From: Clostridia bacterium
GTDB taxonomy: Bacteria > Bacillota > Clostridia > Christensenellales > Aristaeellaceae
Assembly (NCBI GenBank): GCA_017552535.1
Contig: JAFZPV010000013.1
Coordinates: forward strand, 1 to 51,353
Length of the DNA: 51,353 nt
Direction: 5' to 3'
Each line of letters begins with the position of its first letter. Position 1 is the stretch's first letter. Below, piece after piece: positions 14,936 to 41,277 of this stretch. Under the pieces are notes generated by a model. It did no database searches and had not been told where the DNA came from. It worked only from the letters and a program-made list of their open reading frames with translations. Position numbers and translations under genes: made by a program.

Positions 14936-14966
14936 AAATGCATCCGCATTCGGCGGATGCATTTTT
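14936..14966. terminator. Bidirectional terminator
   Basis: A 12-bp stem AAATGCATCCGC (14936-14947) / GCGGATGCATTT (14953-14964), loop ATTCG, with T's continuing on the + strand. It separates the convergent URO-D-like and lipase-like genes and overlaps the last bases before the lipase stop codon. Confidence 0.8.
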
Positions 14967-15753
14967 ACAGTCCGGATTTTGCCAGTTCCTCGCAGAGCGA
15001 AGAATAGAAGGCGTATATCTTTTCACGCTTGCCGCTGCGCACCATAAAATCCACGATCTCGGTATGGGAAACCGAATCGTCCAGGCAGTCGCCCCGGTAG
15101 GCGCCGAAGATCGCGGAATCCCGGGGCACGAGCCCGTCGGTAACGGTGTTTTTCTCGATAAAGCGGGAAAAGGCCAGCGGGATCGCCATCACAAAGTCCG
15201 CCTTTCCCCTGCCCTTGCGGACGGAGGTCGAAAAGCTCTGGCAGAACACGCCGTCCGCGAGGTTAACGGTTTCGGTCTCCAGATGACTAACACGCTTCAA
15301 GTCCTCGCACGCGGCGAAGCTGTCGGGCTGCTTGTCACCGAGAATCCTGTATGCCGCGTTTACCCAGAACGCCACGTACTTTACAGCGAACCTCGGAAAG
15401 CGCATGATGAACGATGCGATGGGCGAACCGCGGTGCGGGGTGCACAGCGTGGTGAGCGAGGCTATGCGGGGTGCCATATCAAAGTGCCGGATCATATGCT
15501 CTGCGTCCAGGCCGCCCTTGGAATGCGCGACGATGTTCACCTTATCCGCGCCGGAATCTTTGAGGATCTGCAGGATCTCCTCCTTCAGCTGATCGGCGTT
15601 GGTTTTTACCGAACCGAAGGCGTCGATTTTGCTTTTGTACACCTCGTATCCCTGCTGGCGCAGCTTGCGGTCGATCCTGCCCCAGGACTTCATAAAGAAG
15701 GTGTCCTTCATGCCCAGCCCGTGCACGAGAAGGATAGGATAGCGTGTCTTCAT
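14965..15753 (-). CDS. Alpha/beta hydrolase, lipase-like
   Basis: About 262 residues. YPILLVHGLGMKD is the oxyanion-hole strand. NIVAHSKGGLDAEHMI carries the nucleophile elbow as AHSKG with S78, as in bacterial triacylglycerol lipases and related esterases. TDGLVPRDSA and SHTEIVDFM supply likely Asp and His. There is no signal peptide. It is the last gene of the DegT-amidohydrolase operon, starting 6 bases after the amidohydrolase TAG stop and in the same frame. Its substrate is unknown; a deacylase for a sugar ester would fit the setting, but this is a guess. Confidence 0.85.
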   Translation of the reverse strand: MKTRYPILLVHGLGMKDTFFMKSWGRIDRKLRQQGYEVYKSKIDAFGSVKTNADQLKEEILQILKDSGADKVNIVAHSKGGLDAEHMIRHFDMAPRIASLTTLCTPHRGSPIASFIMRFPRFAVKYVAFWVNAAYRILGDKQPDSFAACEDLKRVSHLETETVNLADGVFCQSFSTSVRKGRGKADFVMAIPLAFSRFIEKNTVTDGLVPRDSAIFGAYRGDCLDDSVSHTEIVDFMVRSGKREKIYAFYSSLCEELAKSGL

Positions 15754-15759
15754 GGGACT

Positions 15760-16626
15760 CTATTCATCCTCGTGTATCAGCCTTAAAGCGTTGCGGCAGT
15801 AGATATCCTCGAGCACATCCGGCGCAAGGCCAAGGGAATCCAGCAGTTCCCGGTGCTTATTGTCGTAATAGTCCCTGCCGTACAGCACGCGGCTGCGGAA
15901 GCGCGTAAGGAACGCGCGGGTATACTCCAGGTCTCTGGAAAGCGCGCGGCGTCCGGAATTGGCAGAGATATCGCAGTACAGATTCGGGTATTTTTCCAGC
16001 AGCTTTTCGATCTTTCCGCCCGGCACCACGGGCCCTTCGGGATACGCCTGTGTAAGATACTTATCGTCATTGGATATGTGGGCCCAGAAGCCCGGCGCAT
16101 GGCCGATGAAGTTTGTATCCGGACAGGCTATCAGCACGCGCTCCAGGCAGTCGATCCCGCCGCCGTACCACCAGTTCGGGCGCGGGAACTGCTTGCCTGT
16201 AGGATATTCATAATCGAAGTGCAGAAGCACCGGCAGCCCCATCTCGCCCGCCGCGCGGAAGAGCCTGAGGGCGTCCGGGTTATCGTACATCATGCGCAGC
16301 TTCACTTCGCCGCAGATCTTTACATCGAAGGAGTTCACGGCGGCCCTCAGCCTGTTGACGGCATAGGGGTCGCGGGGATCGGGAGCGTATCCCAGGGCAA
16401 AGCGATCCGGGGCTTCCCGTATATACTCAAGCGTCGCGTCCAGTGGCACAGCGGCGCTGGGCGTGGAACGGCTCACACACCAGCTGACCTCGGGGTTGCA
16501 TTCGCTTTCGGGCGTTTCCCAGGTGAGCAGCCAGGTTTTGTCGATGCCGCACTCGTCCATGTTCTTTACGAGCTTCTGGCAGTTGTAGCCGTGATAGTAC
16601 GCGTGGTTGTGTACGTCTATGATCAT
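15760..16626 (-). CDS. Amidohydrolase family (Amidohydro_2-like) metal-dependent hydrolase
   Basis: About 288 residues of TIM-barrel metallohydrolase: MIIDVHNHAYY at the start (HxH metal site), VLLHFDYEYP (metal His), NFIGHAPGFW (second His), LYCDISANSG, and a late RVLYGRDYY where the catalytic Asp sits. The family includes decarboxylases and lactonases for small aromatic or sugar acids; no substrate is evident. GGAGGCC upstream and an 11-base gap after the DegT gene support the start and co-transcription. It ends in TAG. Confidence 0.85.
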   Translation of the reverse strand: MIIDVHNHAYYHGYNCQKLVKNMDECGIDKTWLLTWETPESECNPEVSWCVSRSTPSAAVPLDATLEYIREAPDRFALGYAPDPRDPYAVNRLRAAVNSFDVKICGEVKLRMMYDNPDALRLFRAAGEMGLPVLLHFDYEYPTGKQFPRPNWWYGGGIDCLERVLIACPDTNFIGHAPGFWAHISNDDKYLTQAYPEGPVVPGGKIEKLLEKYPNLYCDISANSGRRALSRDLEYTRAFLTRFRSRVLYGRDYYDNKHRELLDSLGLAPDVLEDIYCRNALRLIHEDE

Positions 16627-18320: not shown

Positions 18321-18361
18321 AAAACAAGCTCCTTACGGCTTTGCCGGCGGGAGCTTGTTTT
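18321..18361. terminator. Terminator-like hairpin before the recombinase remnant
   Basis: A 12-bp stem AAAACAAGCTCC / GGAGCTTGTTTT with a 17-base loop, which would work in either direction. It may belong to a gene lost when the element decayed. Confidence 0.6.
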
Positions 18362-18401
18362 GGCAAAGGACGTGAATTTTGATACAATGTTACTTTTTGT
18401 T

Positions 18402-19451
18402 ACCATAACCAAGAGCGTCAGCCGCTTTGCCCGAAATACCGTCGATTCCCTGACAACGATCCGGAAATTGAAGGAGCATGGGGTCGAATGCTATTTTGAA
18501 AAAGAAAACATCTGGACATTCGACGGCAAGGGCGAGCTGCTGATCACCATCATGTCTTCCCTGGCCCAGGAGGAGAGCCGGAGCATTTCGGAAAACGTCA
18601 CCTGGGGCCACCGCAAGCGCATAGCCGACGGAAAGGTCTCGCTTGCCTTCAGTTCTTTCCTGGGATATGATCGCGGGGAAGACGGCGGCTTAGTCGTGAA
18701 CAAGGAAGAAGCAAACACTGTCCGCCTGATCTACCGCTCCTTCATGGATGGCATGACGCCCATCGGCATCTGCCACATGCTGGAAGAAAAGGGTATCCCG
18801 ACACCCATGAAGAAAAAGAAGTGGTCAGAATCCACGGTTCTGAGCATTTTGTCAAATGAAAAGTACAAGGGCGACGCGCTGTTGCAAAAAACCTTCACGG
18901 TGGACTTTCTGACGAAAAAGCACAAAGTGAACGAGGGCGAAGTGCCGCAATTTTATGTGGAAGGCAATCACGACGCCATTATCCCGCCGCCGGAGTTTGA
19001 CAAGGTGCAAGCTGAACTGGCGCGGAGAAAATCCATCGGACGCGGATACAGCGGCGGGAGCATTTTCGCTTCCAGGCTTGTTTGCGGGGATTGCGGAGGT
19101 TACTTTGGCCAGAAGGTCTGGCACTCCAACGATCCCTACCGCAAGGTGATCTGGCGCTGCAACCGGAAGTACGGCAGCGGCGAAAAGTGCAAAACGCCTA
19201 CCCTGACCGAGGAGACCATCAAGGCGCTGTTTCTGAAAGCCTACAATCTCCTGATGGCAGACCGGGAAAGCATCGCGGAAGACTGCCGGGTTGTTGTTGA
19301 TTTGCTGGGGGATACGAAGGCGCTGGATGCGAGAATTGACGCAGCCCAGAAAGAGATTGACGAAGTGGTAGCCCTAAACAGTGCCCTCATTCGAACCTGC
19401 GCAGCCACAAGCGCGGACAGAGAGGTGTTTGAGCAAAAGACAGCTGAGTAG
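18402..19451 (+). pseudogene. Large serine recombinase, internal fragment
   Basis: The homologous part begins abruptly at ITKSVSRFARNTVDSL, which in intact enzymes is in the middle of the resolvase domain. The first 70 or so residues, including the catalytic Ser, are missing. What remains is the rest of the resolvase domain (SLAQEESRSISENVTWG), the recombinase domain (YRSFMDGMTPIGICHMLEEKG), and the zinc-ribbon domain (LVCGDCGGYFGQKV, then WRCNRK). The reading frame stops at 19449 with a TAG formed where the sequence joins the truncated primase gene, and the usual coiled-coil C-terminus is cut short. It cannot catalyse recombination. Confidence 0.85.
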
Positions 19452-20035
19452 CCGAACAGCGTCTGGAGATATTCGATCTTAGCCAGGTCGCCTTGCATAA
19501 TCTCGTTCATAAAGCCCTCGAAGACGGTGCTGCTGGCGTCCGGGTCGTAACTGACATTTGCAACCTTAGACAGAAGCAGATCGGGATCGTGATTCATAAC
19601 GGTATGGTTCTTTAGATTCAAAACACAGTTCTGGCAGTTAAACAGATATGGGTCGGTATCAAAATCCGTCTGGAGTACCGGCAGAAGATCACGCGCATCG
19701 TCTATCATCGTCCGGCGTCGCCTTCTCTGCTGAAGCTGGCAAACATAATTCTGAAACTCACGCGATTGGATGTCCGCTGAATACAACCAGAGCGACCGGG
19801 AAAGCTGCTTTGCGTATCGTTCAACGGTCATGTCGCCGGGATCGGGCTTCCACCTTACCCCGTCATAAACATACCACGTTTTCGCCGTTGCGTTGTATCT
19901 GAGACACTTTCCGAACACGGCCTTGAATAACTGAGCCGATGAAATATCGTCCGCTGTGTTGTACATCGGGGAGTTCGCGGGATCAAGCTCGGTGATCTTC
20001 GCCTTGACGTCAATTCTATAGGTAGAGGTCTTCAA
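19446..20035 (-). pseudogene. D5_N-type phage/plasmid primase-helicase, 3' part deleted
   Basis: About 197 residues resemble the N-terminal region of D5/P4-type primase-helicases: FKAVFGKCLRYNATAKTWYVYDG (with the family's YxxxxxxWYVYDGxxW feature) and FNCQNCVLNLKNHTVMNHD. The match ends at EYLQTLFGYS, just before the helicase Walker A domain should begin. From there the frame runs into antisense serine-recombinase sequence. The start codon overlaps the Prim-Pol gene end by 20 bases, so it was translated with it. The ATPase is gone, so replication by this gene is lost. Confidence 0.8.
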
Positions 20036-20945
20036 GGGACGCGTTCCCCCTTTCTGTTATTTGCCTCCGTGTCCATTCAAAGAACGTTTCATCGTTATGA
20101 GCGATTGCCTTGCGTATTGTCGTATCTCTGTAATTCGCTCGTTCCCACTTGGCACGGTATAGCCCCGACCGGCGGAATAATCTGTCTATTGCTGCGGGAT
20201 CGTTATTCGTCCAGAAGGCCAGCAAACAACATAGGGCAATATCCGCTTCAGATTGTGAGCCATATGCCGTCCAGTTACCCGAAAACAAAGCGGAAAACTT
20301 GCTCCCGTTGCGCTCCGTCGCATGGCGGATGATCCATTCGTCATCATTCCGCATTGATGGGCTAACTGGAACCGGGACGCTCTCTGACAGCTTGCACTCT
20401 GTTTTGTACCGTTCAAAAACGTATCGCACACCGTCGTCACATTCGACCGGCTCACGGGGAGAAACGGCCCTCCCTGTCATGGCGACAAACCGCCCATCGG
20501 CATACATCTCGACGTTTGCTTTGCTGTTCTTGAAGGAACGCGGGATGTCCCCGGTCACGATCAGGTGAAGGCCCGTCCCTGATTGGCTGACCTCGACAAA
20601 GGTCATCAGGCTGCCGTTGTCATCTGTGAAGGCTTCCAGAATATCAACGGCCCGTTTGTCATAGCTGCCCGCCGGGTCGATGCAGTGATCGATGTCAATG
20701 AATATCGTTCTATACTGCTTTGACATCACAGTTCCCAGACCATTGAAGGCATCCGGCTTTTGTTTCCATGCAGCAACGGCCTCCGCGTATGTCGTCCATG
20801 TTCCCGGATCGGTTGCTGACGCCCTTCGCCCAGATGCCTGATAAGGAACTTTCGTCATCCGGCTTTTCTGCATCTCATGTTTCCATAAGACCCAGATCGG
20901 AAGTGCCTTCAGGGTTTCCGGATAGAAATCCACTATCTCGATCAC
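20016..20945 (-). CDS. Prim-Pol type primase/polymerase (NrS-1-like)
   Basis: About 309 residues. The N-terminus (LPIWVLWKHE) and the FIDIDHC motif with D84 and D86 match archaeo-eukaryotic-type primase-polymerases of phages and plasmids. QSGTGLHLIVTGD supplies the conserved His strand. The C-terminal part, EADIALCCLLAFW to DRLFRRSGLYRAKWERANYRDTTIRKAI, matches the helix-bundle domain of NrS-1-type enzymes. The start is a GTG at 20945 with GGGAGG 9 bases upstream. It overlaps the upstream ORF by 71 bases and the truncated D5 gene by 20. It looks intact and is the element's own DNA replication initiator. Confidence 0.85.
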   Translation of the reverse strand: MIEIVDFYPETLKALPIWVLWKHEMQKSRMTKVPYQASGRRASATDPGTWTTYAEAVAAWKQKPDAFNGLGTVMSKQYRTIFIDIDHCIDPAGSYDKRAVDILEAFTDDNGSLMTFVEVSQSGTGLHLIVTGDIPRSFKNSKANVEMYADGRFVAMTGRAVSPREPVECDDGVRYVFERYKTECKLSESVPVPVSPSMRNDDEWIIRHATERNGSKFSALFSGNWTAYGSQSEADIALCCLLAFWTNNDPAAIDRLFRRSGLYRAKWERANYRDTTIRKAIAHNDETFFEWTRRQITERGNASLEDLYL

Positions 20946-32119: not shown

Positions 32120-32974
32120 TCAGTATTCGAACTCGCCCTCGAACACCATCACGGCGTTGCCCGTGAGGGTGATCCTGTCGTTTTTCACGTTGACCGTCAG
32201 GTCTCCGCCCGGGAGCTTCACGTTGATGTCCCGTCCCTCGTCGCACAGGCCAAGCCGCACCGCAGCGGCTGCCGCCGCGCAGGCGCCGGTGCCGCAGGCG
32301 AGGGTCTCGCCGCTGCCGCGCTCCCACACCCGCAGGCGCAGGGCGGAGCGGTTGATCACGCGCACCCATTCGATGTTGGCCCTTTCCGGGAAGATGGGCG
32401 CAAACTCGTACTTCGGGCCAAGGTCGGATATATCCAGCGCGTCGATGGCGTCCATAAAGATCACGCAGTGCGGATTGCCCACGTTCACGCAGGTGATGTT
32501 CAGGCTTTCACCCGCCAGGGTCGCGGGCATATCGATCACTTCAGCTGCGTCAAGCGTTACCGGAACGGCGGAGGATGCGAACGCCGCCTTTCCCATATCC
32601 GCGGAAACGGTGGTCACTTTTCCGTCCCGCAAGTACAGCCTTAGGTGATAGATGCCCGAAGCCGTTTCCACGCTCATCACCTGGGCGCGCACGAAGCCCT
32701 TATCGTAAACATACTTCGCCACGCAGCGCAGGTTGTTGCCGGCCATGCGGCCTTCGGAGCCGTCTCGGTTGAAATACCGCATGCGCACGTCCGCCACGCG
32801 GGATTTTTCGATCAGCACGATGCCGTCGCCGCCGATGCCGTAGTGCAGGCGGCAGAGCTCCACACACAGGGATTCCGGGCAGGTGATGGCGCCGTCGAAG
32901 TTCTCCACGAAGATGCAGTCATTTCCGCAGGACTGCATTTTGGCGAAGCGGATCTTCTGCCGCCAGGCGCGCAT
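32120..32974 (-). CDS. dapF: Diaminopimelate epimerase
   Basis: Converts LL-DAP to meso-DAP for peptidoglycan and lysine. From the ATG at 32974 the protein has 284 residues, normal for DapF. Catalytic Cys C84 (AGNNLRCVAKY) and C227 (LACGTGACA), the active-site MQSCGND and the GNPHC segment are all present. The open frame continues upstream, without a stop, through the last part of the CarB coding sequence to a GTG at 33103 and on to the carB amber codon. The ATG is inside that stretch, with only a weak GGTGGA before it. Expression probably depends on coupling to carB translation. Confidence 0.9.
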   Translation of the reverse strand: MRAWRQKIRFAKMQSCGNDCIFVENFDGAITCPESLCVELCRLHYGIGGDGIVLIEKSRVADVRMRYFNRDGSEGRMAGNNLRCVAKYVYDKGFVRAQVMSVETASGIYHLRLYLRDGKVTTVSADMGKAAFASSAVPVTLDAAEVIDMPATLAGESLNITCVNVGNPHCVIFMDAIDALDISDLGPKYEFAPIFPERANIEWVRVINRSALRLRVWERGSGETLACGTGACAAAAAAVRLGLCDEGRDINVKLPGGDLTVNVKNDRITLTGNAVMVFEGEFEY

Positions 32975-33127
32975 GGCGTTGATGTCCACCAGCTCCGTGT
33001 TGCCTTCGTTGAAACGGCTTTCGATGATATCCGCCAGGGCGTTGGCAGTATCAAGAGAAGTGAGGCACGGAATGCCCAGCAGCATGGCTTTTCTGTGCAG
33101 CACGGTGTAATCGCCGATGGTGGCGTC
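32975..33127 (-). pseudogene. Orphaned 3' end of carB, in frame with carB and dapF
   Basis: The 51 codons after the carB amber stop read DATIGDYTVLHRKAMLLGIP, then CLTSLDTANALADIIESRF and NTELVDINA. CLTSLDTANAL is the hallmark of the MGS allosteric domain at the CarB C-terminus. The stretch is uninterrupted and in the same frame as both carB and dapF. It is therefore either the product of a recent nonsense mutation, read through, or a base error in the sequence. Confidence 0.8.
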
Positions 33128-36100
33128 CTACACCGCGCCCGTGTATACGATGTAGCTGAGGTCGCCTTCCGCCATCAGGTGCGGGATGTCGTCGCTCTCG
33201 CCGGCGTTTTTCACGCTGATCACGTCGATGCCAAGGGTGGAGATCGCCTGCGCGGTACCCGTAGTGGCGTACAAGGCGATGCCCAGATCGTAAAACCTCT
33301 TGGCCAGGGAGATGATCTCCTGATAGTCGCTCTCCTCCACGCTGATCAGCACGCCGGGCTTTTTGTGGCTGCGGGGCGACGGCACTTTGAAGCCCGCGGC
33401 AGTGAGGCCCTTGAACAGCGCCTCCGGCATGGTCTTGCCGATGCCCAGCACTTCGCCGGTGGACTTCATTTCCGGTCCCAGGATGGAGTTGGCGTCTGAC
33501 AGCTTTTCAAAGGAGAACACCGGCACCTTCACCGCGTAATAAGGCGGCGTGCGGTACAGCCCCGTGCCGCAGCCCAGGTCCTTGAGTTTCGCGCCAAGCA
33601 TCACCTGCGCGGCGATATCCACCATAGGCACGCGCGTGACCTTGCTGATGTAGGGCACGGTGCGGGAGGCCCTGGGGTTGACCTCGATCACGTACAGCTC
33701 TTCCTGATATATAAGGTACTGTATGTTCACGAGACCTTTCGTGCCAAGCGCGAGCGCAAGTTTTTTGGAGCACTCGCAGATCTTTTCGATGTAGCGGTCG
33801 TCCAGGTTGTAGGGCGGATAGACGGCGATGGAATCTCCGCTGTGCACGCCAGCGCGCTCAATGTGCTCCATGATGCCGGGGATCAGCACGTCGTCTCCGT
33901 CGGAAATCACGTCCACTTCCAGCTCCACGCCGGGCATGTATTTGTCCACCAGCACCGGGTTTTCGATGCCGCCCGCCAGGATGCGGCGCATGTAATCCTC
34001 GGTATGCTCGCGGGAACGGCTGATGGTCATGTTCTGCCCGCCGATCACATAGGAGGGCCTGAGCAGTACGGGATAACCCAGCTCCTGCGCGGCCTGGACC
34101 GCTTCTTCCAGGGTGTTCACGCCCCTTCCGCTGGGACGGCGGATGCCGAAGTTCTCCAGCAGCGCGTCAAAGCGGGCCCTGTCCTCGGCGATGTCGATGC
34201 CTTCCGCGGAAGTGCCCAGGATCGGGATGTTGTTCTCATCCAGGAATTTGGTGAGCTTGATGGCGGTCTGTCCGCCGAATGCCACCACCACGCCTACGGG
34301 TTTTTCCACGCGGATGATGTTCATCACGTCTTCCGGCGTGAGAGGCTCAAAGTACAGGCGGTCCGCCGTGTCGTAATCGGTGGATACGGTCTCCGGGTTG
34401 TTGTTCACGATCACCACGTCGTAGCCCAGTTCCCGCAGCGTCCACACGCAGTGCACGGAAGAATAGTCAAATTCTATGCCCTGACCGATGCGGATCGGGC
34501 CGGAGCCCAGCACCATGATGCAGGGCTTGGAAGAGCGTTTGAAAGAGCGCGAATCGCAGACCGAATCGTAGGTAGAATAGAAATACGGCGTCTCGGCTGC
34601 AAACTCGGCAGCGCAGGTATCCACCATCTTGTATACGGCTTCTGAGTAAGGCAGGTCTTTTCTGCCGGAGAGGCGCGAAAGCGCCTTGTCGGTATAGCCC
34701 AGGCGCTTGCCCCTGAAATAATCCTCGTCGCTCAGGCTGTTTTCGATCTTCTTTTCAAAATCCGCAAGGTTCTTCAGCCTGAAGAGGAACCAGGGGTCGA
34801 TGCGGGTGACGGAAGTCACTTCTTCCACGCTCATGCCGCTCTTCAGGGCTTCAAAGCAGGTGAAGATGCGCACGTCGTCCATATCCGCCAGGCGCTCACG
34901 CACCGGCCTGTCGTCGACAGGCACCTTGTTCAGGGTGTCTGCGCCGATCTCGGCGCCGCGTACGGCTTTCAGAAGGCCCATTTCGAAATTGGGCGCAATG
35001 GCCATCACCTCGCCCGTGGCCTTCATCTGGGTGCCCAGGCGCCTTCTGGCGGTGTTGAACTTATCGAAAGGCCACTTGGGGAACTTGACCACAACGTAGT
35101 CCACGGTGGGTTCGAAGCACGCGCAGGTCTTTCCTGTGATCTCGTTTTTGATCTCGTCCAGCGTATAGCCCAGGGCGATCTGCGTGGTCACCTTGGCGAT
35201 GGGATAGCCCGTCGCCTTGCTGGCCAACGCCGAAGAACGGCTCACGCGGGGATTGACCTCGATGACCGCGTATTTCATGCTGTACGGGTCCAGCGCGAAC
35301 TGGCAGTTGCAGCCGCCCATGATGCCCAGCGCGTTTATGATGTTCAGGGCCGCGGAGCGCAGCATCTGGTATTCCTTATTGGAAAGGGTAAGCGCCGGGG
35401 CCACCACGATGCTGTCGCCGGTGTGCACGCCCACGGGGTCCACGTTTTCCATGCTGCACACGGCGATCACGTTGCCGATGCCGTCCCGCATGACTTCGAA
35501 CTCGATCTCTTTCCAGCCGGCGATGTATTTTTCCACCAGGATCTGGTTGATTGGCGAAGCGTCCAGGCCGCTTTGCGCCGCCTGGCGCATTTCTTCAGGC
35601 GTGTAGGCAACGCCGCCGCCCGTGCCGCCCAGCGTGAAGGCAGGCCGGATGATGACCGGGTAGCCGATCTCGGAAGCGATCCTGAGAGCTGTGTCCACGT
35701 CCTCGGCGATATCCGAGGGGATCACGGGCTCGCCGATGGACAGCATGGTGTCCTTGAACATCTGCCGGTCTTCGGCTTTGTCTATGGCCTCGGCGTTGGT
35801 GCCGATCAGCTTTACGCCGTGGGCTTCCAGAAAGCCTTCGCGGCTTAGCTGCATGGCGAGGGTCAGGCCGGTCTGGCCGCCCAGGCCCGCCAGCATGCTG
35901 TCCGGCTTTTCCTTGATGATGATCCGCTTGACTGTCTCCGCCGTGAGGGGTTCAAGATATATCTCGTCCGCCAGGGCCTTGTCCGTCATGATGGTGGCGG
36001 GGTTGGAATTGACAAGCACCACGTTGACGCCTGCCTTTTTGAGCACGCGGCAGGCCTGGGCGCCGGCATAGTCGAATTCCGCCGCCTGGCCGATCACGAT

Positions 36101-36151
36101 GGGGCCGGAGCCGATCATCAAAACCTTTTTGATATCTTTATTCAGCGGCAA
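33128..36151 (-). CDS. carB: Carbamoyl-phosphate synthase large subunit, ended by an amber codon
   Basis: Makes carbamoyl phosphate from ammonia (supplied by CarA), bicarbonate and two ATP for arginine and pyrimidine synthesis. 1007 residues: two homologous ATP-grasp halves (KKVLMIGSGPIVIGQAAEFDY near the start, and MVLGSGPIRIGQGIEFDYS near residue 545) with metal-binding VIEVNPR in each. The C-terminal MGS domain begins about residue 930 but is cut by a TAG at 33128-33130 after SYIVYTGAV. Intact homologues are about 1060 residues, and the missing 51 codons follow in frame. The catalytic halves are complete. The start overlaps the carA end by 14 bases. Confidence 0.93.
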   Translation of the reverse strand: MPLNKDIKKVLMIGSGPIVIGQAAEFDYAGAQACRVLKKAGVNVVLVNSNPATIMTDKALADEIYLEPLTAETVKRIIIKEKPDSMLAGLGGQTGLTLAMQLSREGFLEAHGVKLIGTNAEAIDKAEDRQMFKDTMLSIGEPVIPSDIAEDVDTALRIASEIGYPVIIRPAFTLGGTGGGVAYTPEEMRQAAQSGLDASPINQILVEKYIAGWKEIEFEVMRDGIGNVIAVCSMENVDPVGVHTGDSIVVAPALTLSNKEYQMLRSAALNIINALGIMGGCNCQFALDPYSMKYAVIEVNPRVSRSSALASKATGYPIAKVTTQIALGYTLDEIKNEITGKTCACFEPTVDYVVVKFPKWPFDKFNTARRRLGTQMKATGEVMAIAPNFEMGLLKAVRGAEIGADTLNKVPVDDRPVRERLADMDDVRIFTCFEALKSGMSVEEVTSVTRIDPWFLFRLKNLADFEKKIENSLSDEDYFRGKRLGYTDKALSRLSGRKDLPYSEAVYKMVDTCAAEFAAETPYFYSTYDSVCDSRSFKRSSKPCIMVLGSGPIRIGQGIEFDYSSVHCVWTLRELGYDVVIVNNNPETVSTDYDTADRLYFEPLTPEDVMNIIRVEKPVGVVVAFGGQTAIKLTKFLDENNIPILGTSAEGIDIAEDRARFDALLENFGIRRPSGRGVNTLEEAVQAAQELGYPVLLRPSYVIGGQNMTISRSREHTEDYMRRILAGGIENPVLVDKYMPGVELEVDVISDGDDVLIPGIMEHIERAGVHSGDSIAVYPPYNLDDRYIEKICECSKKLALALGTKGLVNIQYLIYQEELYVIEVNPRASRTVPYISKVTRVPMVDIAAQVMLGAKLKDLGCGTGLYRTPPYYAVKVPVFSFEKLSDANSILGPEMKSTGEVLGIGKTMPEALFKGLTAAGFKVPSPRSHKKPGVLISVEESDYQEIISLAKRFYDLGIALYATTGTAQAISTLGIDVISVKNAGESDDIPHLMAEGDLSYIVYTGAV

Positions 36152-37211
36152 AGCTCTTCCCTCCCATCATGCGCGCAAAGCGGTCGAACAGCGCCGACGT
36201 ATCGCGGGGCCCAGCGCAGGCTTCCGGATGGAACTGTACGCTGAAAGCGCAGTATTCCGGGTAGTCGATGCCTTCACAGGTCTGATCGTTGGCGTTCACG
36301 TATCGCAGCTGTCCTGCCGCGATGCCGTTCACATCCACGGCGTAGCCGTGATTCTGGCTGGTGATATAGGTATGTCCGGTCCTCAGGTCCGTTACAGGCT
36401 GGTTTCCGCCGCGGTGGCCGTATTTGAGTTTTATGGTCTTACCGCCCGTCGCCAGCGCCATCATCTGATGGCCCAGGCACAGGCCGAATACGGGCACCCT
36501 GCCCATGAGCTTTCTGATCTCGGCGATACAGGCGGTATTCTCCGCCGGATCTCCGGGGCCGTTTGACAGCATCACGCCGTCCGGAGAAGCGGAAAGGATC
36601 TCTTCCGCAGTCGTTTCAGGCGGCACCACGGTGACTTCGCAGCCCCTCTGGCAGAGTTCGCGTATGATGCCCTGTTTGGTGCCGTAGTCCACCAGCGTGA
36701 CGAAGTATTTCTTTTCGCCCAGCGCCGGGAATACGCTCACTTTTTCCGCCGAGGCGCGTCGCACGGCGTCCTTTACGCGGTAGGAAACGATATCGTCCAG
36801 GGACGAGGGCACCTGGTCCGCGATCAGTGCGTTCATCACGCCCTTGTCCCGGATGTGCTGGGTGATAGCGCGGGTATCCACGCCATATATGCCGGGAACG
36901 CCCTGCTTTTTCAGGAATTCATCGATATCATACTGGCTGCGGAAGTTGCTGGGCGTGCGGCACCACTCGCGCACCACGTAGCCTTTCACCAGGCAGCGGC
37001 CCTCGAAGTCGTCTTCGATGATGCCGTAATTGCCGATGAGCGGGAAGGTCTGCATGACGATCTGCCCGTAGTAGCTGGGATCGGTGAGGGTCTCGATATA
37101 TCCAACCACACCGGTGTTGAACACCAGTTCGCCCAGTCCGTTCTTGTCGGCGCCGAAGCCTTCCCCCTCGTATACGCTGCCGTCCGCAAGGATCAGATAG
37201 CGTTTTGCCAT
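36138..37211 (-). CDS. carA: Carbamoyl-phosphate synthase small subunit
   Basis: The glutaminase subunit, which supplies ammonia to CarB. 357 residues: CPSase small-chain domain (YLILADGSVYEGEGFG, GVVGYIETLTDPSY) and class I amidotransferase domain with nucleophile C245 (FGLCLGHQ) and the pair H328/E330 (QFHPEA). The ATG at 37211 has GAGGTG 5 bases upstream; a longer frame to 37274 is not supported. It lies between argF and carB in the arginine operon, so this copy serves arginine supply and is likely arginine-regulated. Confidence 0.96.
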   Translation of the reverse strand: MAKRYLILADGSVYEGEGFGADKNGLGELVFNTGVVGYIETLTDPSYYGQIVMQTFPLIGNYGIIEDDFEGRCLVKGYVVREWCRTPSNFRSQYDIDEFLKKQGVPGIYGVDTRAITQHIRDKGVMNALIADQVPSSLDDIVSYRVKDAVRRASAEKVSVFPALGEKKYFVTLVDYGTKQGIIRELCQRGCEVTVVPPETTAEEILSASPDGVMLSNGPGDPAENTACIAEIRKLMGRVPVFGLCLGHQMMALATGGKTIKLKYGHRGGNQPVTDLRTGHTYITSQNHGYAVDVNGIAAGQLRYVNANDQTCEGIDYPEYCAFSVQFHPEACAGPRDTSALFDRFARMMGGKSFAAE

Positions 37212-37239
37212 ATGCTCACCTCTAGTGAAAGAATCGGTT

Positions 37240-38253
37240 TTATGCCTGGATCGCTGCCTGCAGCCCTTCGGCAAGCGTTGCGGCCATGACCGCCTTGATG
37301 GTATGCATGCGGTTTTCCGCTTCGTCGAAAACGATGGAGCTTTCGCCCTCGAACACTTCGTTTTCGACCTCCATGCAGGTCAGGCCGAATTTTTGGTAGA
37401 TGTCCAGCCCGATGCCGGTCTCCAGGTCGTGAAACGCCGGCAGGCAGTGCATGAAACGGCACTGCACGCCCGCTATGGCCATGATCTCACGCGTCACCCG
37501 GTAGGGCTCAAGGTCGTTTATGCGCGTCTTCCATACGCTTTCGTCCTCCCCCATAGACACCCACACGTCTGTATAGATCACGTGCGCCCCCTGAACGGCG
37601 GCAGAAGGATCGGTCTCAAAGCACAGATGCGCGCCGGAAACGGCGGCGATCGCTTCACATTTCGCGATCAGATCTTTGGGCGGAAAGTACTTTTGGGGCG
37701 CGCAGGCCGTAAAGTCCATGCCGAGCTTTGCGCAGCCGATCATGAGCGAGGACGCCATATTATAGCGCGCGTCGCCCATGAATACAAGCTTTTTCCCGCG
37801 CACAGAGCCAAAATGTTCCCGCACGGTGAGCATGTCCGCCAGCACCTGGGTGGGATGGTATTCGTTGGTGAGGCCGTTCCACACCGGCACCCCGGAATAC
37901 TTCGCCAGCGCCTCCACGCGCTCCTGGCCGTAGCCCCGGTATTCGATGCCGTCGAACATGCGTCCCAGAACCCGTGCAGTATCGGCAATGGATTCCTTCT
38001 TGCCGATCTGAGATGCGGAAGGATCGAGATAGACCGGGTGCATGCCCAGGTCCGCCGCCGCAACCTCGAAAGCGCAGCGCGTTCGGGTGGAGGTCTTTTC
38101 AAAGATCAGCGCCACGTTTTTGCCTTCGCATACGCGGTGCGGTATGCCGGCCTTCTTCTGGGCTTTGAGCGCCGCGGCCAGGTCCAGCAGGTATTCGATC
38201 TCCTCAGCTGAATAGTCCAGCAGGGTCAGAAAGCTTCCGTTTTTAAGCGTCAT
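37240..38253 (-). CDS. argF: Ornithine carbamoyltransferase
   Basis: Joins carbamoyl phosphate and ornithine to give citrulline. 337 residues with the carbamoyl-phosphate motif FEKTSTRTRC, the HPTQ segment, the domain linker MGDARYNMASSLM, and the ornithine-binding FMHCLPAFHD. The start overlaps the argB stop by 11 bases. OTC assignment over aspartate carbamoyltransferase rests on HCLP and on operon position. Confidence 0.96.
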   Translation of the reverse strand: MTLKNGSFLTLLDYSAEEIEYLLDLAAALKAQKKAGIPHRVCEGKNVALIFEKTSTRTRCAFEVAAADLGMHPVYLDPSASQIGKKESIADTARVLGRMFDGIEYRGYGQERVEALAKYSGVPVWNGLTNEYHPTQVLADMLTVREHFGSVRGKKLVFMGDARYNMASSLMIGCAKLGMDFTACAPQKYFPPKDLIAKCEAIAAVSGAHLCFETDPSAAVQGAHVIYTDVWVSMGEDESVWKTRINDLEPYRVTREIMAIAGVQCRFMHCLPAFHDLETGIGLDIYQKFGLTCMEVENEVFEGESSIVFDEAENRMHTIKAVMAATLAEGLQAAIQA

Positions 38254-39127
38254 AGGTATATCCGTCTCCTTTTACCATCGTTCCGGCGCCTTCGTCGGTC
38301 AAGAGTTCCATGAGCACCGCGTGAGGCACGCGCCCGTCCATGATGACAACCTGCTTTACGCCCTCGTTGATCGCCCGTATGCAGCAGTCCACCTTGGGTA
38401 TCATTCCGCCGGAGATGACGCCCGAGCGCTGCAGGTCTGCGATCTGGGATATGGTGACCTCCGGGATCAGCGTGGAAGGGTCGTCCCTGTTCAGCAGGAT
38501 GCCGGCGATGTCCGTCATCAGGATCATGCGCTCGGCGCCCAGCGCCCCCGCGATGCGGGCAGCGGCGGTGTCGCCGTTGATGTTGAATATGTTGCCCCGG
38601 CTGTCGCAGCCCACGGTGGAGATCACCGGGATATAGCCGTTTTGCAAAAGATCATTGACGGGCTGGATGTTGATGCGGGTGATGCAGCCCACGTAGCCCA
38701 GCTGCTCGTCCTGAAAATCCGCCTCGATCAGTCGCCCGTCCATGCCCGAAATGCCGATGGCTCTGCCTCCCTTCATTTCAAGCAGGTTTACCAGCGTTTT
38801 GTTCACTTTGCCCGCCAAAACCATCTGCACCACGTCCGCGGTCTCCTTGTCCGTCACGCGCAGGCCGTTCACAAACCGCGGCTGCATGCCCAGGCGGTTC
38901 ATCAGCTCGCTGATGTCCGGCCCGCCGCCGTGAACGAGCACCACGTGCACGCCTATCAGCCACAGAAGCACGATGTCTTCCATCACCTGCTGCTTCAGGT
39001 TTTCGTTCACCATGGCGTTTCCGCCGTATTTGACCACCACGATCTTGCCCGTGTAGCGCTTTATGTAGGGAAGCGCCTGGGTGAGCACCTCGGCGCGCTG
39101 GGCGTTTGACAATAAAGTGCTCATCAT
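38243..39127 (-). CDS. argB: Acetylglutamate kinase
   Basis: Phosphorylates N-acetylglutamate in the second arginine step. About 294 residues: VVKYGGNAM (ATP-binding Lys), VLVHGGGPDI (glycine loop), the NAG-binding segment around GLRVTDKETADVVQMVLAGKVNK, and the late GMIPKVDCCIRAI. The N-terminal helix (residues 1-25) before the core is the extension typical of arginine-inhibited hexameric enzymes, so feedback control by arginine is likely. The true start may be the second ATG at 39124. Confidence 0.96.
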   Translation of the reverse strand: MMSTLLSNAQRAEVLTQALPYIKRYTGKIVVVKYGGNAMVNENLKQQVMEDIVLLWLIGVHVVLVHGGGPDISELMNRLGMQPRFVNGLRVTDKETADVVQMVLAGKVNKTLVNLLEMKGGRAIGISGMDGRLIEADFQDEQLGYVGCITRINIQPVNDLLQNGYIPVISTVGCDSRGNIFNINGDTAAARIAGALGAERMILMTDIAGILLNRDDPSTLIPEVTISQIADLQRSGVISGGMIPKVDCCIRAINEGVKQVVIMDGRVPHAVLMELLTDEGAGTMVKGDGYTYDA

Positions 39128-39134
39128 TCTTTCC

Positions 39135-40349
39135 TCAGGTGCGGTAATCGCCGTTGATCTTGACGTATTCGTATGTGAGGTCGCAGCCCCAGGCCGTGGA
39201 GGATGCCTCCCCCATGTTCAGGCCGATCAGGATCTCGATCTCGTGTTCGCTCAGGATGCGCTTGGCCTTGTCCTCGTCAAAGTCCACGCCAGCGCCCCCG
39301 CGGCACACTTCGATACTGCCCGCGCGGCTTTGGAAGGAAACGTCTATCTTTTCCACGTCCACGTCCGCGCCGCTGTAGCCGATGGCGCACAGTACGCGGC
39401 CCCAGTTGGCGTCCGCGCCGAACATAGCGGCCTTGAGTAAGCTAGAGCAGATCACGCTCTTGGCCACGGTGCGGGCAGCTGAAAGATCCTTCGCGCCGGA
39501 CACCTTGCATTCCAGAAGCTTCGTGGCGCCTTCGCCGTCGGAAGCGATCATGCGGCACAGCGCAACGGTGACGGTGTTTAGCGCCTTCATGAAAGTATCA
39601 AAATCTTCGCCCTCTTTGTCGACGCATGGATTCCCGGCCTGGCCGTTTGCCATCACCACCACCATGTCGTTGGTGGAGGTGTCTCCGTCCACGCTCACCA
39701 TATTGAAGGTGCCCTTTACGTCGCCGGACAGCGCCTTTTGGAGCATATCCGGTGCGATCGCCGCGTCCGTGGTGATGAACACCAGCATGGTGGCCATGTT
39801 AGGATGGATCATGCCGCTGCCTTTGGCGATGCCTCCCATGCGGCATGTCTTTCCGCCCAGATCGAACTCCACAGCCGCTTCCTTGCGCACGGTGTCGGTG
39901 GTCATTATGCCTTCCGCCGCCCGGTCGCTGCCGTCTTCGCTCAGGGAGGCGATGAGCTCGTCCATGCCGTTTTGGATAGGCAAAAGGCTCATAGGCTGGC
40001 CGATCACGCCGGTGGAGGCCACCACCACGTCATCGGGCCGTATATTCAGCTTTTGAGCTGCCAGCAGGCTCATGCCCTCGGCGATCTCGATGCCGTTTGC
40101 GTTGCAGGTGTTTGCGTTGCCGCTGTTGCAGATCACGGCCTGGGCGTATCCGTCGGCAAGGTGCATTTTGTTTACCTTGAGGGGCGCGCCTTTTACCAGA
40201 TTGGTGGTATACACCGCTGCGCAGCTGGCGCGGGAAGAAGATACAATGAGCGCAAGGTCGCGCTTGGAACGGTTTTTGCGGATGCCGCAGTGGATGCCCC
40301 CGGCGGTAAAGCCTTTTGCCGCGCACACGCCGCCCGAAATCTGTTTCAT
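39135..40349 (-). CDS. argJ: Glutamate N-acetyltransferase / ornithine acetyltransferase
   Basis: Moves acetyl from acetylornithine to glutamate, recycling the acetyl group. 404 residues. The self-cleavage site at the conserved ATML is present (HPNMATML, A186-T187), giving alpha and beta chains. GIMTTDT and AKGSGMIHPN are also clear. AAAGGAG 8 bases before the ATG at 40349 fixes the start; the longer frame to 40394 is not needed. With argJ present, argE is not required. argD, argG and argH must lie elsewhere. Confidence 0.96.
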   Translation of the reverse strand: MKQISGGVCAAKGFTAGGIHCGIRKNRSKRDLALIVSSSRASCAAVYTTNLVKGAPLKVNKMHLADGYAQAVICNSGNANTCNANGIEIAEGMSLLAAQKLNIRPDDVVVASTGVIGQPMSLLPIQNGMDELIASLSEDGSDRAAEGIMTTDTVRKEAAVEFDLGGKTCRMGGIAKGSGMIHPNMATMLVFITTDAAIAPDMLQKALSGDVKGTFNMVSVDGDTSTNDMVVVMANGQAGNPCVDKEGEDFDTFMKALNTVTVALCRMIASDGEGATKLLECKVSGAKDLSAARTVAKSVICSSLLKAAMFGADANWGRVLCAIGYSGADVDVEKIDVSFQSRAGSIEVCRGGAGVDFDEDKAKRILSEHEIEILIGLNMGEASSTAWGCDLTYEYVKINGDYRT

Positions 40350-40362
40350 ACGTTTTCTCCTT

Positions 40363-41277
40363 TTAGTCTGTAACAAGGCCCAGGCTTTCTTCAAGGCCGA
40401 GTATAAGGTTCATATTCTGTATCGCCGCGCCGGAGGCGCCTTTGCCAAGATTGTCGAAGCGGGCGGAAAGGATCAGGCGCTCGCCGCTTCCAAACACACT
40501 CACGGTCATATCGTCGCGCCCTGCCATCGCGGAAGCGGACAGAAAGCCTTCTTCGCTTTCATCCGCGCGGAACCGGATCAGGCCGCTTCGGTAATACTCA
40601 CGGTACGCGTCCTCCGCATCCATTTTCCGGATGCCCGTAACGGGCACCGTGACCTCCATGCCCGCGTAATACGGAGCGACCACCGGGCAGAAGACGGGTG
40701 CGTTTTGAAGGCCGCACAGAAGCTTCATTTCGGGAAGGTGCTTGTGGTTCTGGTTCAGGCCGTACATGCGCGGCGCGTTCAGGAGCGGGTCTTTGTTTTC
40801 GTCCTCGTACTGGGCGATCATCTTTTTGCCGCCGCCGGAATAGCCTGTGAGGGAAAAACAGCTGAGAAAAGCGTCCGGTGCGATCAGGCCTGCCTGCACC
40901 AGCGGCGCGACGAGGGCGATAAAGCCGCTGGCGTGGCAGCCTGGATTGGCCACGCGTTTGGAGGACATGATCTTCTTACTTTGCCCTTTCAGTTCAGGAA
41001 GACCGTATACCCATCCTTTGCTTACCCTGTGAGCGGTGGAGGTGTCTATCACCGCGGTCAATGGGTTTTCGACGAGGAGAGCGCTTTCCCGCGCCGCGTC
41101 ATCCGGCAGGCAGAGAAAAGCCACATCCGCTGAATTGAGCGCGTCTTTGCGTGCCCCGGGGTCCTTGCGCCTGTTTTCGTCCAGGCGTATCAGTTCGATA
41201 TCCTTTCTTTCCTCCAGGCGGCTCACGATGCGCAGCCCCGTGGTGCCAGACCCGCCGTCCACAAAAACCTTATGCAT
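40363..41277 (-). CDS. argC: N-acetyl-gamma-glutamyl-phosphate reductase, type 2
   Basis: NADPH-dependent reduction of acetylglutamyl phosphate. 304 residues, the shorter type-2 form: GGSGTTGLRI (Rossmann loop), VIDTSTAHRV, catalytic Cys in NPGCHASGF, and SGGGKKMIAQYE in the catalytic domain. It heads the operon and is the nearest gene to the ARG-box promoter. The ribosome binding site is weak (GGTGA). Confidence 0.95.
   Translation of the reverse strand: MHKVFVDGGSGTTGLRIVSRLEERKDIELIRLDENRRKDPGARKDALNSADVAFLCLPDDAARESALLVENPLTAVIDTSTAHRVSKGWVYGLPELKGQSKKIMSSKRVANPGCHASGFIALVAPLVQAGLIAPDAFLSCFSLTGYSGGGKKMIAQYEDENKDPLLNAPRMYGLNQNHKHLPEMKLLCGLQNAPVFCPVVAPYYAGMEVTVPVTGIRKMDAEDAYREYYRSGLIRFRADESEEGFLSASAMAGRDDMTVSVFGSGERLILSARFDNLGKGASGAAIQNMNLILGLEESLGLVTD

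Follow-up and report, generated by a model that had tools for sequence, protein, structure and literature searches.

The contig JAFZPV010000013.1 of assembly GCA_017552535.1, from a Clostridia bacterium of the Aristaeellaceae, is analysed here as a single window of 51,353 nucleotides and carries on its minus strand a carB gene, encoding the large subunit of carbamoyl-phosphate synthase, that is interrupted by an in-frame amber codon and continues into a domain resembling DapF, the diaminopimelate (DAP) epimerase. The carB frame as found (33128..36151) begins at a TTG codon, encodes 1007 amino acids and scores 1368.5 bits against TIGR01369; its TAG (33128..33130) follows SYIVYTGAV inside the MGS domain, as a preliminary description of this DNA had reported. 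That description had also placed the missing end of the MGS domain in the same frame, which is borne out, although the segment comprises 50 conserved codons up to VDIN (32978..33127) and not 51. From VDIN the frame passes directly, free of stops as had been claimed, into the DapF-like domain (32120..32977, 271.8 bits against TIGR00652), ending at a TGA at 32120-32122, 335 codons past the TAG. Both CPSase and MGS domains, the features of a CarB large subunit, are present, but a complete MGS domain requires reading through the stop: carB as found covers positions 1 to 66 of the 94 in the Pfam MGS profile, and the frame taken across the stop covers 1 to 94, and the Pfam DAP_epimerase match lies downstream of the TAG. 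The continuation past the TAG is not a product of chance, since intact relatives match it over its full length. Within the DapF-like domain, alignments place an alanine codon (32741..32743, in MAGNN) where canonical DapF has its first catalytic cysteine, whilst the second catalytic cysteine is retained (32294..32296, in ACGTGAC).

The CarB-DapF fusion, which the preliminary description had advanced as an idea, is real to judge from related genomes. In what follows, genomes carry G codes and loci L codes, and G000 is the genome of the window. The MGS-DapF region was recovered in one match in four of the seven genomes of the genus, with a single TAG in G000 and none in G003, G006 and G001, whose fused frames run uninterrupted for 1348-1350 codons. 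At the site of the stop all three of these junction-covering relatives have a sense codon, for lysine, and none has separate carB and dapF genes, the arrangement that would have spoken against a fusion. Among the remaining genus members, the fused DapF of G002 is represented by a piece at a contig edge, and only stand-alone DapF turned up in G004 and G005 (75% and 77% complete). Of 120 evenly sampled genomes of the family, 62 carry the fusion, of which 60 are uninterrupted over the matched stretch, one is G000 with its TAG and one, G081, is split; this count leaves out G098, represented by contig-edge pieces alone. The split case (L058, 2066-6177) has CarB and DapF distributed over two overlapping frames, through either a frameshift or an error. 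Hand inspection identified four genomes among the 120 (L073-L076, three from genus g27 and a single one from g4) with a CarB that lacks the DapF tail, retains an intact MGS domain and ends in VDIN-x-MR plus one residue; other g27 and g4 genomes carry the fusion.

Beyond the family, a match across both halves was obtained in 86 of 297 genomes of the order, G000 included, spread over 16 family codes by hand count; G326 (contig edge) and G245 (partial) come on top of this figure. G000 alone has a stop among these 86 fused frames, and the TAA found in G320 separates distinct carB and dapF genes. In a sample of 398 genomes of the phylum the fusion occurs in 19, again including G000, and the first cysteine is kept in five of the other 18. 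Two of the assemblies with a fusion, G618 and G643, consist of a single contig and have lost both cysteines, so the catalytically dead form is not an artefact of draft assembly. A fusion with both cysteines is present in Ruminococcus sp. FC2018 (L102), a strain-named record that is not marked as a metagenome-assembled genome (MAG). Three loci from MAGs labelled Treponema or Spirochaetaceae (L106, L128 and L148) carry the fusion without the first cysteine, and reflect either transfer or misbinned contigs.

Of greater interest than the stop is the object it interrupts, a conserved but catalytically crippled DapF domain attached to CarB. The score of the domain is well above the TIGR00652 cut-off of 114.65 bits, yet DapF requires two cysteines and the window domain has alanine in the first position and cysteine in the second. 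Among the matches listed, five of five solved DapF structures have CGN (17 sequences matched) where the fused domain has AGN. Across the 61 family rows (that of the window and 60 others) the first position is occupied by alanine in 48, serine in seven, glycine in five and proline in one, and never by cysteine, and L048 and L052 likewise have no cysteine there; the second cysteine is kept in 60 of the 61. By what the accessible portions of two papers report, E. coli DapF without both cysteines does not convert LL-DAP (PMC4227774), and Cys-to-Ser replacement in PddB, a DapF-like racemase, leaves <0.1% of activity (PMC8225329); on these grounds, epimerase activity of the fused domain appears very unlikely. 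A cysteine in the CGTGAC segment was considered as a new, compensating catalytic residue and rejected, as the same cysteine occurs in fusions and stand-alone proteins that keep MCGNG. A stand-alone DapF with the canonical MCGNGIRC is encoded in all seven genus genomes, that of G000 being L013. The earlier suggestion that the fusion contributes to DAP supply finds no support, given the absence of the first catalytic cysteine and the presence of this canonical enzyme; as the latter has its own locus elsewhere, the stop, if real, should leave the supply of DAP unharmed.

The ligand-binding residues have been preserved. The DAP-binding residues of DapF (N11, N64, G74, N75, N157, N190, R209, G218 and S/T219 in H. 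influenzae numbering) are mostly named in the available part of PMC8225329. E208 is a further DAP-binding residue. Located in the fused domain by motif, the predicted binding residues, E208 among them, are 90-100% conserved in the 61 rows, and conservation of 11 site residues, with C73 omitted and the second cysteine included, exceeds that of the remaining domain (Mann-Whitney p 2.8e-6). Estimates of w (dN/dS) for the fused DapF, 0.18-0.31, lie beside 0.27-0.33 for the stand-alone proteins, the fused domain being lower in four of six genome pairs and higher in two, which suggests similar constraint on the fused domain and on the stand-alone DapF of the same genomes. Thus the sequences show a domain that is not a normal DAP epimerase, with its DAP-binding residues and one cysteine kept and the other cysteine lost.

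Retention of one cysteine raises the alternative that the fused domain catalyses another reaction through it, acting on an amino acid similar to DAP by one-base chemistry. Single-Cys DapF mutants can perform half reactions, and the persistence of the second cysteine and of the binding residues throughout most of the family would suit such an activity; one-base chemistry is possible where that cysteine remains. Both cysteines are lost, however, in G210, G315, G413, G403, G167, G618, G643 and G692, and no identified neighbouring gene suggests a reaction of this kind; the alternative seems rather improbable. In three of these genomes (L258-L260, from G692, G618 and G643) the cysteine positions read MSGNA and AAGTS and the domain is otherwise DapF-like throughout.

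How the loss of cysteine relates to other routes to DAP was examined in a set of 82 rows from the order, comprising 80 full-span genomes outside family f1 together with G326 and G245, such that rows of family f1 do not enter the two-by-two table. Both cysteines are present in 38 of these fused domains (L245 was not read at the second position) and at least one is lost in 44. The both-Cys fusion is the only DapF recognised by TIGR00652 in 37 of its 38 genomes. The 44 lost-Cys genomes include 35 with a further DapF, 27 by a first search and eight among the other 17, giving a contrast of 1/38 against 35/44 (Fisher p 1.5e-13, without correction for kinship). The 27 rest on one search, in which, among the matches listed, 17 are separate frames, including the pair in G320, the only genome in which the catalytic residues of these second DapFs were read. 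Of the remaining nine lost-Cys genomes, six encode a DAP dehydrogenase (G240, G410, G371, G351, G196 and G167), and pieces of DapF occur in G344 and G167. On a tree of 95 rows, built by a quick method, with family f1 represented by 13 of its 61 rows, and carrying a long-branch warning, the catalytic state changes six times, four of these changes being forced by supported branches, and the window falls in a clade whose 41 rows are all dead.

Several observations weigh against the view that loss of catalysis follows from an alternative source of DAP and leaves an accessory domain behind. Neither a second DapF nor a DAP dehydrogenase was found in G336 and G419, and G344 has only its contig-end piece of DapF. 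Of the 38 both-Cys genomes, 11 encode DAP dehydrogenase too, so that on its own it does not predict loss of cysteine. In the 41 named genomes another DapF accompanies 14 of 22 lost-Cys fusions and three of 18 that keep the first cysteine (L092 was not read); of the other eight lost-Cys genomes in this set, four have DAP dehydrogenase, G146, G147 and G160 showed no route, and G161 has only a sub-cut-off DapF match in a genome where the dehydrogenase was not searched. A kinship-corrected test based on the few independent pairs, four of them on supported branches, was not significant (p 0.25-1). Finally, the loss of the second cysteine as well in some lineages favours a structural role over residual catalysis there.

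The origin of the stop is a separate matter. The preliminary description had inferred from the clean downstream frame that the stop is either very recent or an error, and neither the frame nor the selection estimates give any sign of decay. For the MGS end after the stop, w is 0.008-0.076 in pairs that include G000 and 0.046-0.163 in pairs without it; the corresponding values for the DapF part are 0.18-0.26 and 0.18-0.31. These values are rough, the synonymous divergence dS of the pairs (0.8-2.2) being near or over 1, which counts against leaning heavily on them, and for the same reason they exclude only an old stop. They nonetheless suggest that selection past the stop has not relaxed in G000. 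A decayed pseudogene end is ruled out by the lack of any frameshift and of any increase in w after the stop. The stop is thus private to G000 and either recent or a base error.

An error of base calling or assembly, in which case the organism carries an intact fusion, is the explanation to which we give slightly better than even weight. The assembly is a MAG, 76.7% complete and in 62 contigs, the stop is unique among all fused frames examined, selection after it does not appear relaxed, and a cell that needs CarB has no other in the assembly, although a very recent true mutation would look identical and a strain polymorphism could underlie the same reading. A genuine recent nonsense mutation, trimming the MGS end together with the DapF-like domain, is a credible but lesser prospect: tail loss does occur, as the four tail-less family proteins and the split frame of G081 demonstrate, and the canonical DapF of G000 lies elsewhere, but unfused relatives retain the whole MGS domain whilst here 50 conserved MGS codons would be lost too, with no second CarB found in the assembly. 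In our judgement error is somewhat likelier than true mutation, and the stop itself is probably trivial.

Translation through the stop, by a suppressor tRNA or recoding that yields a full-length fusion, had been proposed in view of the clean downstream frame, but no result supports it, within a search that used a narrow tRNA pattern and did not extend to RF1 or the pyl genes, and we regard it as highly improbable. The plain sense codon in three relatives argues against a conserved recoding signal. The narrow tRNA-CUA-like pattern gave two matches in the incomplete assembly against five in reversed controls, hence nothing above control, and ARAGORN, run on the window only, returned a tRNA-Val and nothing else. 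The preliminary description had judged general UAG recoding unlikely, and it is indeed ruled out by an amidohydrolase gene that reaches 286 of the 289 positions of its profile before its own TAG at 15760-15762. The next gene in that frame is alpha/beta-hydrolase-like (14965-16626 for the pair, minus strand), which gives the appearance of a read-through fusion, but the arrangement reads as two genes. TAG ends seven of the 41 listed long open reading frames of the window, carB included, some of these frames being spurious.

Separate translation of DapF from an internal start past the stop appears no more credible than read-through. An ATG at the end of CarB (VDINAM) and a GTG at 33103 offer potential start codons, but between 32960 and 33140 no start codon has any of six purine-rich motifs at a distance of 4-10 bases ahead of it, the relatives have a single frame, and the separate genes of G320, where carB ends in TAA and a GGAG precedes dapF, present a clear contrast. 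With no ribosome-binding motif recognised at the CarB-DapF junction, an internal start has no support.

Were the stop real, the strain would make a CarB without its MGS end and without the accessory domain. The stop corresponds to residue 1008 of CarB, and residue 1038 of the window protein aligns with residue 1049 of E. coli CarB, in which residues 933-1073 form the allosteric domain and Thr1042 contacts ornithine, according to the accessible portion of PMC6245113. From this correspondence the ornithine-contact region of the window protein should fall after the stop. Truncation of the allosteric domain in E. coli CarB was reportedly studied by Czerwinski et al. in 1995. In the MGS loop (window 33100-33180) the window family has YTGAVxDATIGDY, compared with STSxKGRxP in Ruminococcus-type fusions, a difference that may reflect changed effector binding.

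The fusion is the last gene of a minus-strand arginine operon in the order argC-argJ-argB-argF-carA: argC, of the argC_other type (40363..41277; TIGR01851, 341.8 bits), argJ (39135..40394; TIGR00120, 461.7 bits), the acetylglutamate kinase gene argB (38243..39127; TIGR00761, 270.7 bits), the ornithine carbamoyltransferase gene argF (37240..38253; TIGR00658, 403.8 bits) and carA (36138..37274; TIGR01368, 428 bits). Counting loci with at least 600 bases upstream of carA, an argF-like frame stands beside carA in none of 17 that keep the first cysteine and in 22 of 40 that have lost it; L109, which has argF, is outside this count. Gene order also supports an origin of the fusion from neighbouring genes. 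At L246 of G320 (contig C13, 2823-7501, minus strand) carB, dapF and dapL are separate, carB ending in TAA and dapF starting at an ATG after GGAG and encoding canonical MCGNG; dapL encodes LL-diaminopimelate aminotransferase (TIGR03542, 481 bits). The same genome carries a fused copy with serine in place of cysteine (L194). The order in FC2018 is carA-carB::dapF-dapL, so that carB and dapF are found next to dapL both separate and fused, and the separate genes of G320 may resemble the arrangement that preceded fusion. Other loci that keep the cysteine lie near purF and guaA (L248) or purF and pyrG (L250); at L247, also a Cys-kept locus, the sole neighbour scanned matched no family. Elsewhere in the window, the region 18360-20945 is a possible mobile element, encoding a serine recombinase (Resolvase, Recombinase and Zn ribbon domains) and, close by, a protein that bears an NrS-1 polymerase HBD domain.

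The fused protein resembles known systems in parts. With DapF (TIGR00652; PDB 2otn, 1bwz and 2gke) the domain shares homology over its whole length, above cut-off, together with the binding residues and the second cysteine, and differs in lacking the first cysteine, in being joined to CarB and in co-occurring with a canonical stand-alone DapF. With CarB (TIGR01369; E. coli 1jdb) the protein shares the CPSase and MGS domains, and departs from it in the DapF-like domain added past MGS, in the YTGAVxDATIGDY loop and, here, in the TAG interruption. A precedent in principle for regulation of another enzyme by DapF without catalysis is E. coli RppH, which, as stated in the accessible part of PMC4227774, is still bound and stimulated by DapF(C73&217A) independently of epimerase activity; there the proteins are separate and the loss of cysteine engineered, whereas here the loss is natural and the fusion to CarB covalent. 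PddB, a cofactor-independent diaminobutyrate racemase described in the accessible portion of PMC8225329, is likewise a DapF-like protein of altered function, but it is the reverse case, with the cysteine pair kept and distal binding residues changed. No title or abstract opening found in the open-licence PMC literature names a CarB-DapF fusion.

The account we consider likely is that a private stop, which arose either by recent mutation or as a base error, interrupts a conserved CarB-DapF fusion whose DapF-like domain is no longer an epimerase and is kept as an accessory of CarB. The starting point was most likely a fusion of CarB with a functional epimerase, such as Ruminococcus-type relatives still have. 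Where another DapF or a DAP dehydrogenase is present, epimerisation by the fused domain would have become dispensable, as their co-occurrence suggests. The domain would then have been retained in an accessory capacity, through putative binding of a DAP-like ligand, support of the CarB allosteric domain, or both. We infer that an enzyme fusion has repeatedly given rise to an accessory domain of CarB without epimerase function, in the present case within an arginine operon. More tentatively, and with less than even likelihood by a wide distance, the cysteine-less domain could serve in several lineages as an allosteric module of carbamoyl-phosphate synthase that senses DAP or a DAP-like ligand, freed from catalysis by another DapF or DAP dehydrogenase. 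For annotation there is a practical warning, in that dead-type domains far exceed the cut-off for DapF and would be labelled as the cell's DAP epimerase, probably wrongly. Many genomes of gut Clostridia and their relatives carry the fusion, with a catalytic state that changes and yet with conservation where it is dead, and its forms (active, one cysteine lost, both lost, domain lost) provide a natural series in which the passage from catalytic to accessory domain can be studied. Should the sensing module prove true, synthesis of arginine and pyrimidine precursors would be coupled in these organisms to the cell-wall and lysine pathway.

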